A stretch of 64,000 bases of DNA from an uncultured Flavobacteriaceae bacterium (GTDB lineage: Bacteria; Bacteroidota; Bacteroidia; Flavobacteriales; Flavobacteriaceae), in contig CANMSA010000001.1 in NCBI GenBank assembly GCA_947500385.1, positions 62,001 through 126,000 of the forward strand, read 5' to 3'. A model generated the notes under the pieces. That model worked only from the letters and a program-made list of their open reading frames with translations. It was not told the DNA's origin and ran no database searches. Positions 7,974 through 8,975 of this stretch are shown here, piece by piece. The position numbers and the translations under genes were made by a program. Within the stretch, counting starts at the first letter, position 1, and the number at the start of each line of letters is the position of its first letter.

Positions 7974-8057
7974 GCGCACGTGGCGGAATTGGTAGACGCG
8001 CTAGCTTGAGGGGCTAGTGGCCATTAGGCCGTGGAAGTTCGAGTCTTCTCGTGCGCA
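7974..8057 (+). tRNA. tRNA-Leu (anticodon GAG)
   Basis: The cloverleaf can be drawn by eye. The 7-bp acceptor stem pairs GCGCACG (7974-7980) with CGTGCGC (8050-8056), with discriminator A8057. The D arm contains AATTGGTAGACGC. The anticodon stem CTAGC/GCTAG encloses loop TTGAGGG, so the anticodon is GAG. A long variable arm (TGGCCATTAGGCC) marks class II, as expected for leucine. The T arm has loop TTCGAGT. CCA is not encoded. A terminator hairpin begins 6 bases after the discriminator. Confidence 0.97.
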
Positions 8058-8062
8058 CTAAA

Positions 8063-8091
8063 AGACCGTCTTGAAGACGGTCTCTTTTTTT
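8063..8091 (+). terminator. Rho-independent terminator of tRNA-Leu / leader hairpin of GIY-YIG copy 1
   Basis: Stem AGACCGTC (8063-8070), loop TTGAA, stem GACGGTCT (8076-8083), then C and seven T (8085-8091). The T tract ends directly against the ATG of the GIY-YIG ORF at 8092. Confidence 0.88.
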
Positions 8092-8343
8092 ATGACATAC
8101 TATACATACATCCTGTATTCCAAAAAATTCGATACCTTTTACAAAGGACAGACCAACAATATCCGGGAAAGACTTGCCAGACATAACGCGGGCAAGGAAA
8201 AAGCAACGGCGCCATATAGACCCTGGGAGCTTGTTTGGTACACCTCAAAACCTACCCGTGGGGAAGCCTTCAAATTGGAACGCAAATTGAAAAACCTTTC
8301 AAAGGAGAGAACACGGGACTTCATAAAAAAGTACAGCAAATAA
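8092..8343 (+). CDS. GIY-YIG nuclease family protein, copy 1
   Basis: An 83-residue single-domain GIY-YIG protein of the UPF0213/YhbQ type. YYTYILYSKKF corresponds to the GIY strand and FYKGQTNNIRERLARHN to the YIG strand and the following arginine helix. GEAFKLERKLKNLS supplies the conserved glutamate region. I chose ATG 8092 because it matches family N termini; an in-frame TTG at 8071 would lie inside the terminator hairpin. There is no promoter or ribosome-binding site between the T tract and the ATG, so expression would depend on read-through from the tRNA. It is the first of three tandem copies. The DNA target and role are unknown. Confidence 0.85.
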   Translation: MTYYTYILYSKKFDTFYKGQTNNIRERLARHNAGKEKATAPYRPWELVWYTSKPTRGEAFKLERKLKNLSKERTRDFIKKYSK

Positions 8344-8401
8344 TGCATACCTCGATGGCCGCTAGAAAATTCGAGCCAAGACGCAACGAAGTTGGTCTAG
8401 G

Positions 8402-8422
8402 TCAAGACCGCGAGCGTCTTGA
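8402..8422 (+). repeat. Second hairpin of repeat unit 1
   Basis: TCAAGAC (8402-8408), loop CGCGAGC, GTCTTGA (8416-8422): a perfect 7-bp inverted repeat. It sits immediately before the copied tRNA 3' end and has no T tract, so it is not a typical terminator. Confidence 0.7.
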
Positions 8423-8441
8423 TCTTCTCATGCGCACTAAA

Positions 8442-8470
8442 AGACCGTCTTGAAGACGGTCTCTTTTTTT
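8442..8470 (+). terminator. Terminator hairpin, repeat unit 2
   Basis: Identical to the hairpin at 8063-8091, one repeat period downstream. It again abuts the ATG of a GIY-YIG ORF and would stop transcripts coming from copy 1. Confidence 0.85.
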
Positions 8471-8722
8471 ATGACATACTATACATACATCCTGTATTCC
8501 AAAAAATTCGATACCTTTTACAAAGGACAGACCAACAATATCCGGGAAAGACTTGCCAGACATAACGCGGGCAAGGAAAAAGCAACGGCGCCATATAGAC
8601 CCTGGGAGCTTGTTTGGTACACCTCAAAACCTACCCGTGGGGAAGCCTTCAAATTGGAACGCAAATTGAAAAACCTTTCAAAGGAGAGAACACGGGACTT
8701 CATAAAAAAGTACAGCAAATAA
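8471..8722 (+). CDS. GIY-YIG nuclease family protein, copy 2
   Basis: The second copy encodes the same 83 residues as the ORF at 8092, with the same hairpin arrangement before its ATG. I saw no amino-acid difference between copies 1 and 2. That could reflect recent duplication or gene conversion. Function as for copy 1: a small GIY-YIG domain of unknown target. Confidence 0.85.
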   Translation: MTYYTYILYSKKFDTFYKGQTNNIRERLARHNAGKEKATAPYRPWELVWYTSKPTRGEAFKLERKLKNLSKERTRDFIKKYSK

Positions 8723-8780
8723 TGCATACCTCGATGGCCGCTAGAAAATTCGAGCCAAGACGCAACGAAGTTGGTCTAGG

Positions 8781-8801
8781 TCAAGACCGCGAGCGTCTTG
8801 A
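8781..8801 (+). repeat. Second hairpin of repeat unit 2
   Basis: The same TCAAGAC / GTCTTGA inverted repeat with a CGCGAGC loop as at 8402-8422, just before the third copy of the tRNA 3' end. Confidence 0.7.
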
Positions 8802-8820
8802 TCTTCTCGTGCGCACTAAA

Positions 8821-8849
8821 AGACCGTCTTGAAGACGGTCTCTTTTTTT
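8821..8849 (+). terminator. Terminator hairpin, repeat unit 3
   Basis: Third copy of the AGACCGTC/GACGGTCT hairpin with its T tract, directly before the truncated GIY-YIG ORF. Confidence 0.85.
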
Positions 8850-8975
8850 ATGACATACTATACATACATCCTGTATTCCAAAAAATTCGATACCTTTTAC
8901 AAAGGACAGACCAACAATATCCGGGAGAGACTTGCCAGACATAACGCGGGCAAGGAAAAAGCAACGGCGCCATAA
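8850..8975 (+). pseudogene. Truncated GIY-YIG ORF, copy 3
   Basis: The reading matches copies 1 and 2 for 41 codons through AGKEKATAP, then meets TAA at 8973-8975 where similarity to the repeat stops. It keeps the GIY and YIG strands but loses the glutamate-bearing helix, so it is unlikely to be active. One base differs in the shared part (gggaGaga against gggaAaga), which keeps arginine. The break marks the right end of the tandem array. Confidence 0.8.

Follow-up and report, generated by a model that had tools for sequence, protein, structure and literature searches.

Candidate selfish cassettes pairing a small GIY-YIG nuclease with partial tRNA copies at tRNA genes of Bacteroidota

SLX1, a structure-specific nuclease of the GIY-YIG superfamily, acts together with SLX4 and carries further domains. 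The tyrT (rtT) repeats of Escherichia coli lie downstream of the gene for a tyrosine transfer RNA (tRNA-Tyr). In the T-even phages (T4/T6), the free-standing GIY-YIG nuclease SegB is encoded preferentially near tRNAs and has been associated with tandem amplification; no isotype preference was reported for it (PMC13096335). Here we describe a tandem array of small units at a tRNA-Leu(GAG) gene in a genome of an uncultured Flavobacteriaceae bacterium (assembly GCA_947500385.1, contig CANMSA010000001.1, positions 62,001 to 126,000 of the forward strand); this whole stretch of 64,000 nucleotides (nt) is referred to below as the window. Each full unit combines an open reading frame (ORF) for a GIY-YIG nuclease with pieces of the tRNA beside which it lies. 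Our preferred interpretation, to which we assign a probability of about 0.6, is that the units represent a selfish, homing-like cassette whose home is structured RNA genes, chiefly those of tRNAs, and which joins a small SLX1/UPF0213-type GIY-YIG nuclease to a piece of the host tRNA. Judged by sequence comparison, recurrence at many different tRNA genes of the phylum points to a candidate family of selfish elements that appears undescribed. A search of the open literature in PubMed Central, with subscription papers and preprints outside its scope, found no description of these cassettes.

In the window, direct repeats start at positions 8044, 8423 and 8802, with a spacing of 379 and 379 (Table 1). 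A full unit runs from the last 15 nt of the tRNA through a terminator-like hairpin and an 83-residue GIY-YIG ORF to a broken piece of the same tRNA. An initial annotation of this DNA had described three 379-base copies, each beginning with the last 13 bases of the tRNA gene and carrying a terminator hairpin, a GIY-YIG ORF and a second hairpin. The terminator-like hairpin does recur in every copy (arms 8060-8072/8074-8086, and again at +379 and +758), but the repeated tRNA end measures 15 nt (8044-8058) and only two units are complete. The third breaks off about 172 nt in, with no more than residues 1-49 of the ORF and no second hairpin. In units 1 and 2, that second hairpin corresponds to a 47-nt insert that interrupts the T-loop of a broken copy of the tRNA; in unit 1 the insert (8376-8422) separates the pieces matching tRNA positions 62-70 and 71-85, and positions 8376-8430, treated as DNA, fold better than 200 of 200 shuffles (z -4.1). 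The first two units are 100% identical over 300 nt by a rounded repeat score, with a single base difference, 8051 versus 8430, in the tRNA end. As the initial annotation had stated, the units hold no ORF for a recombinase or transposase, nor one for an integrase, among the window ORFs examined. A search of the locus against Rfam returned the tRNA as its sole match at E up to 1, with no match to an E. coli rtT-type family. Because the window's genome is a draft of 123 contigs, the copy number of this particular array is unproven. Tandem matches are also present in the single-contig genomes G359, G407, G465 and G305, so the repeats are not a general assembly artefact, the cause that the initial annotation had named as a possible refutation.

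Table 1. Features of the tandem array at tRNA-Leu(GAG), in window coordinates
Feature	Position	Strand	Evidence
Intact tRNA-Leu(GAG), host gene of the array	7974..8058	+	ARAGORN; Rfam tRNA 52.8 bits
Unit 1, 379 bp, starting inside the tRNA T-loop	8044..8422	+	Direct repeat
Unit 1 terminator-like hairpin and T run	8060..8091	+	Inverted repeat; DNA fold of 8058-8095 z -5.4
Unit 1 GIY-YIG nuclease ORF, 83 residues	8092..8343	+	Pfam match; structure model pLDDT 96.9
Broken copy, piece matching tRNA positions 62-70 (5' side of T-arm)	8367..8375	+	Alignment to tRNA
47-nt hairpin-forming insert, T-loop of broken tRNA copy	8376..8422	+	Alignment to tRNA; DNA fold
Unit 2, 379 bp	8423..8801	+	Direct repeat
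Unit 2 copy of tRNA positions 71-85, one mismatch	8423-8437	+	Sequence reading
Unit 2 terminator	8439-8465	+	Inverted repeat
Unit 2 GIY-YIG nuclease ORF, every codon as in unit 1	8471..8722	+	ORF list; codon comparison
Insert of unit 2 broken tRNA copy	8755-8801	+	Repeat and alignment
Unit 3, truncated: tRNA 3' end copy, terminator, ORF start	8802..8973 (end approximate)	+	Direct repeat
Unit 3 terminator	8818-8844	+	Inverted repeat
Unit 3 GIY-YIG ORF start, residues 1-49 only	from 8850	+	ORF list

The window protein matches the GIY-YIG domain PF01541 with 60.8 bits, against a curated Pfam cut-off of 22.6. This is the sole Pfam domain in its 83 residues, with no separate DNA-recognition domain, and the aligned relatives are of similar size (78-104 residues). 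A structure model built with 26 relatives reached a predicted local distance difference test (pLDDT) score of 96.9. By profile and by fold alike, the nearest solved relatives are UPF0213 proteins and SLX1, and I-TevI is a weak fold match. The protein is placed, on sequence and model, in the UPF0213/SLX1-like branch of the superfamily, unlike the I-TevI-type homing enzymes; the initial annotation had pointed out that the superfamily includes homing endonucleases. Eight columns are invariant in the alignment of 26 proteins, including Y6, Y17, G19, R27, H31 and E63, which we take to be the catalytic GIY-YIG, R, H and E positions. The ratio of nonsynonymous to synonymous substitution rates (dN/dS) was 0.05-0.26 in the 7 of 16 ORF pairs in which it could be computed, synonymous change being saturated in 8 pairs and one pair being identical; in the computable pairs, the ORF appears to be under purifying selection.

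To survey relatives, a profile was built from 26 such proteins and run over 296 Bacteroidota genomes, where it found many tandem arrays, some in single-contig assemblies. Matches at E <= 1e-12 were present in 182 of the genomes, an upper bound in that this threshold also admits UPF0213-like proteins; the per-genome matches rest on the best 18 scored candidates. The linkage count covers 151 loci with 218 matching ORFs, from which L002, L003, L006 and L046-L082 were omitted against double counting, and in which, as in the tree described below, L028 and L029 duplicate the arrays of L018 and L020. With only the nearest tRNA scored for each ORF, 170 of the 218 have that tRNA on the same strand within 600 nt, and none has it antisense within that distance. 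By comparison, 0.48% of strand-positions in 20 arbitrary 20-kb windows of such genomes lie that near a same-strand tRNA, a figure resting on 3 tRNAs in 400 kb. The 218 ORFs derive mostly from the best-scoring profile matches, so this sample favours the tRNA-linked subfamily. For a less biased sample, PF01541 matches were collected from 24 genomes belonging to the class. Of the 54 small matches outside the window's genome, 51 were used, with two second copies in the same locus and a 31-residue fragment omitted. Here 16 of the 51 are tRNA-linked and none is antisense, with linkage in 12 of the 20 best-scoring matches (profile E <= 1e-16) versus 4 of the 31 others; the unlinked small matches were called UPF0213-like by eye. 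The loci of 11 long GIY-YIG proteins, 8 from the 24-genome sample and 3 from the window's genome, contained no tRNA. A general association of GIY-YIG genes with tRNAs is thus rejected or weakened, weak profile matches being rarely linked and long proteins never in this sample. Linkage to tRNA is a property of this subfamily, strong but not universal.

Comparison among loci indicates two arrangements of the cassette. Type A, the window's form, has the intact tRNA ahead of the ORF and a copied 3' part of it behind; type B begins with a copied 5' part, continues with the ORF and ends at the intact tRNA. At several type B loci (L013, L019, L024 and L037) the ORF runs into the tRNA, with the tRNA's own TAG near position 8 serving as its stop codon. 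A copy of the same tRNA, clearly above shuffled sequence, occupies the far side of 102 of the 116 ORFs that lie within 170 nt of an intact tRNA, and its aligned blocks have a mean identity of 96% to that tRNA. The displaced copy is often broken, yet an intact tRNA remains beside the ORF. Inserts of at least 10 nt interrupt 66 of the 102 copies, 81 inserts in total, and their position differs between the arrangements, with the T-loop taking 25 of the 50 type A inserts and the D-loop 23 of the 31 in type B. Insert stems are longer than those of shuffled sequence (5.33 versus 3.49), and 72 of the 81 inserts form at least one hairpin.

Among these inserts, 13 of 22 nt, found in copies of Ser, Pro and Cys tRNAs and in different loops, fit two consecutive hairpins with 4 pairs and 3-nt loops. 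In this arrangement 93.3% of cells are paired, 16 double-sided changes are seen versus 3.3 in shuffles, and no slid register comes near. The 13 were picked by eye from 16 inserts of that length and the single hairpins L026, L144 and L150 were dropped, a choice that favours the double-hairpin structure. At one and the same tRNA gene, the window and Maribacter polysiphoniae (L030) carry T-loop inserts of 47 and 49 nt, respectively, that differ in sequence and are placed by the alignment at different points of the loop. What these hairpin inserts conserve is pairing and not sequence.

The lineages of the nuclease follow tRNA identity. A tree of 146 proteins over 89 columns, with 58 of 140 branches open, carried 129 labelled rows in 17 states, six labels being set by hand (tmRNA, the transfer-messenger RNA, for L165; RNase P for L137 and L139; Asp for L117 and L123; Asn for L004). 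On this tree, 41 changes are counted for the amino acid of the neighbouring tRNA, compared with 91.4 +/- 2.6 after shuffling (the minimum of 500 shuffles being 84). The anticodon changes 64 times versus 104.0, and the side, A or B, 22 times versus 30.6. Where the proteins of two loci are at least 60% identical, the amino acid is shared in 75 of 85 pairs (11% expected by chance), and 30 of these 75 pairs involve different anticodons and hence different genes, in several cases with a switch of side as well. Genome G190 has a pair of sister ORFs, 81% identical, one beside tRNA-Ser(gct) and the other beside tRNA-Ser(gga). These patterns fit movement among the genes of a single tRNA family better than they fit descent at one locus alone.

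The initial annotation had placed the units at the 3' end of a tRNA and proposed looking for them directly after tRNA or rRNA (ribosomal RNA) genes. Elsewhere they do lie mostly beside tRNA genes, but before as well as after them, and also at other RNA genes. At L165, a unit sits at the 3' end of tmRNA and a broken copy of the tmRNA end follows the ORF. At L137 (G230), the ORF extends into the beginning of the RNase P RNA gene, whose first bases recur in inverted orientation upstream of the ORF, and L139 (G335) has the same protein and the same RNase P match in Rfam. Ribosomal RNA was rejected or weakened as a target, with no rRNA match in the 28 loci searched with Rfam. Where an intact tRNA is missing, some ORFs adjoin a tRNA 3' half instead (L004, L095, L117 and L123), and no RNA gene was found near L131. 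Such halves, like the empty sites and remnants described next, were judged by eye on the sequence.

Occupied and empty alleles coexist among close relatives of the window's genome, which answers the suggestion of the initial annotation that empty sites be sought there. At the tRNA-Leu(GAG)-MerR locus, 5 of ten same-genus genomes, the window's included, are without a unit (L049, L051, L052, L053 and L055), the GIY-YIG content of the loci having been confirmed by profile. Maribacter polysiphoniae has two units. L050 holds an ORF with an in-frame stop together with a remnant, L048 a remnant at the same locus, and L054 ORF-less tandem copies with T-loop hairpins; at L047 the contig starts inside a unit. 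ORF-less forms also emerged from a hairpin pattern, TCCCGA-n-TCGGGA, which occurs at 17 places in the window's genome versus 1 for a control pattern. Eight of the 17 lie in a tRNA or at most 100 bp from one, one being a tRNA's own anticodon arm. By eye, these eight include ORF-less copies of the ends of tRNA-Tyr, tRNA-Leu(caa) and tRNA-Cys, the last followed by the apparent start of a GIY-YIG reading frame.

These features can be arranged into a proposed cycle for the homing-like cassette. The nuclease would cut an unoccupied cognate tRNA gene, perhaps presented as a hairpin or junction in single-stranded DNA, and repair off the occupied allele would copy the cassette in. The carried tRNA piece would restore a working tRNA on one side, and the displaced part would be left on the other, its arm often closed by a hairpin so that it would serve neither as a tRNA decoy nor as a fresh target. 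Repeated tRNA ends could then allow tandem amplification of units, which would eventually decay and be lost. The initial annotation had suggested that the unit spreads by rebuilding the tRNA end; the unit does carry the tRNA part, and the comparison across loci is consistent with selfish or homing spread. Anatomy, linkage, the lineage pattern, polymorphic sites and decay are thus documented by comparing loci, whereas transfer, restoration of the tRNA as a cassette invades, and the role given to the hairpins are inferences.

Several observations weigh against this reading. We infer cutting and movement from comparison. The tRNA left intact next to the ORF ought still to contain the target, which leaves self-protection unexplained, and the protein is without a separate DNA-binding domain to confer tRNA specificity. 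The anatomy is also not uniform, with 14 of the 116 ORFs beside an intact tRNA lacking a clear tRNA copy and 36 of the 102 copies lacking an insert of at least 10 nt; of the latter, several have a tight hairpin in place of the anticodon arm (L098, L156, L157 and L142) and others show no alteration at all, e.g., L092 and L170. Under a strict rule, only 63 of the 100 copies that span a whole loop have a loop broken, the rule being rough in that several inserts at loop edges were scored as intact. No hairpin forms in 9 of the 81 inserts, and only 48 of the 81 clearly beat shuffled sequence, folding better than at least 57 of 60 shuffles. Amino-acid labels also change often on the tree, 41 times among 17 states, and vertical inheritance at fixed loci could account for part of the match between lineage and isotype. 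Eight strong relatives in the less biased sample are unlinked, with no tRNA nearby by ARAGORN or Rfam and no RNA gene by Rfam. L233, L269 and L270 lie between tRNA-like fragments by eye; L235, L253, L255, L256 and L274 have neither such fragments by eye nor an RNA gene nearby. Finally, no vehicle for spread is known. With the window protein as the only query, so that distant members could be missed, relatives were found in 1 of 50,697 phage records and 2 of 72,556 plasmid records, all below 40% identity, and none of 17 stretches from a viral collection was confirmed. A phage or plasmid vehicle is rejected or weakened by this near-absence. The only phage record with a weak relative is Microcystis phage MaAM05 (MW495066.1:145552-145782; 36% identity).

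Other explanations account for parts of the evidence. The match of lineages to isotype, loops that are interrupted in copies whose aligned blocks retain 96% identity with the tRNA, the terminator-like hairpin between tRNA and ORF in the window, and the tiny proteins in tandem units would all suit an addiction module acting at the RNA level. In such a module, the GIY-YIG protein would cleave one tRNA isotype at a loop and a co-transcribed, hairpin-closed copy would bind the nuclease as an uncleavable mimic, as in a type III toxin-antitoxin. We consider this rather unlikely, given that the nearest solved relatives are DNA junction nucleases, that the module needs no linkage to the intact tRNA itself, that ORF-less copies are kept beside tRNAs, and that many type B copies hold the 5' tRNA part only. 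It is likewise unlikely that cleavage is directed at the hairpin-bearing copies and spares the intact tRNA, thereby driving local amplification or collapse of tandem units at tRNA loci, perhaps after domestication for tRNA dosage or repair. Donor-only cutting fails to explain the presence of the cassettes at different tRNA genes of the same amino acid, and patchy, decayed copies speak against a conserved host role, although the SLX1-like fold, hairpins that conserve pairing and not sequence, ORF-less tandem hairpin units, and the identity of at least 95% in 54 of 68 same-locus ORF pairs (the L018/L028 and L020/L029 arrays being counted twice) are all compatible with it.

Remnants of integrase-driven elements, such as attachment-site duplications of a prophage or an integrative and conjugative element (ICE), or plain replication-slippage duplications with a passenger ORF, appear very improbable. 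Some tRNA 3' halves without an intact tRNA do exist, one of them (L224) beside an ORF that we presume to be tyrosine-recombinase-like. The integrase-free unit rejects or weakens the prophage/ICE version, and the covariation within one insert set, together with purifying selection on the ORF in the computable pairs, does the same for plain slippage. Type B copies, moreover, are 5' parts, and a tRNA within 600 nt is always on the ORF's strand when nearest. A classical, sequence-specific homing endonuclease gene that is free-standing like SegB, and merely lies beside tRNAs, has a clear precedent in that nuclease's enrichment near phage tRNAs and its tie to tandem amplification (PMC13096335). We nevertheless judge it improbable here. 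The window protein has no other Pfam domain and only weakly matches the I-TevI fold, the present lineages follow isotype whereas SegB is reported without isotype preference, and tRNA copies with loop hairpins go unmentioned in the accessible sections of that study (PMC13096335).

A number of further loci deserve mention in their own right. Two tRNA-linked members come from records labelled outside Bacteroidota, L037 (Moraniibacteriota; type B at tRNA-Gln, with the 5' part copied) and L036 (Chlorobiota), which suggests a wider spread beyond the phylum. Contigs begin or end in or near a unit at L005, L015, L031, L047, L084, L088, L101 and L106, suggesting that unit arrays break assemblies. At L235 (oriented ORF 864-1136), both flanks look coding-like by eye, perhaps those of an interrupted gene. 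Three further loci belong to the window's own genome. At L008 (G000:C1:523957-524121), tmRNA is followed on the same strand, after about 280 nt, by a diverged GIY-YIG gene, and no tmRNA copy was found beyond that gene. At L212:761-2620 (G000:C7:134000-136800), 11 tRNAs predicted by ARAGORN lie within less than 2 kb amid hairpin-bearing broken tRNA copies, a cluster that may be the tRNA array of an integrated element. At L224:4133-5404 (G000:C2), a 423-residue ORF, presumably tyrosine-recombinase-like, lies beside a tRNA 3' half and tandem GIY-YIG copies, which suggests that the units were parted from their tRNA by an integrative element.

Chromosomal elements in many Bacteroidota genomes thus appear to inhabit essential tRNA genes without breaking them. 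If homing is indeed involved, bacterial selfish nucleases would have specialized, lineage by lineage, on tRNA families and given rise to non-autonomous derivatives. This raises the question of how an 83-residue catalytic domain picks one tRNA family yet spares the adjacent working copy. One tentative answer, which we hold to be possible but doubtful, is that the cassettes form a novel class of mobile element: a bare SLX1-type junction nuclease, lacking any DNA-binding domain, would recognize its target by tRNA structure, with the hairpin-armed half-tRNA as its cis-acting partner, in the form of folded DNA or of RNA. Such an element would home to one tRNA family, rebuild the gene, and also mobilize ORF-less hairpin-tRNA units. 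In genome annotation, such cassettes are a possible cause of tRNA copies that look truncated or broken and of contigs that break at tRNAs.

The cassettes share individual features with several known systems. The rtT repeats, as we understand them, are likewise tandem units that each start with the 3' end of a tRNA gene, but they have no nuclease. Integrative elements that use tRNA attachment sites similarly restore the tRNA on insertion and leave a displaced tRNA part behind, as generally described; the cassettes differ in having no integrase, in their 379-bp units in the window, in copies of 5' as well as 3' parts, and in copies broken by hairpins. UPF0213/SLX1 nucleases are the best sequence and fold matches of the window protein. 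The small GIY-YIG genes that match the profile less well, mostly UPF0213-like by eye, are nonetheless rarely tRNA-linked (4/31), unlike the cassette subfamily. The closest precedent is SegB, also a GIY-YIG gene co-localized with tRNAs and linked to tandem amplification. As far as the available sections of the SegB study describe it (PMC13096335), SegB is phage-borne whereas the cassettes reside on bacterial chromosomes, and the cassettes further differ in a catalytic domain of UPF0213/SLX1 type alone, a partial copy of the tRNA in which loops are often closed by hairpins, lineages matched to isotype, and ORF-less units. Because enzyme type, host, anatomy and isotype pattern differ, and a separate recognition domain is lacking, we do not file the cassettes as homing endonucleases; we regard them as a variant on a known theme, with a real chance of being more.

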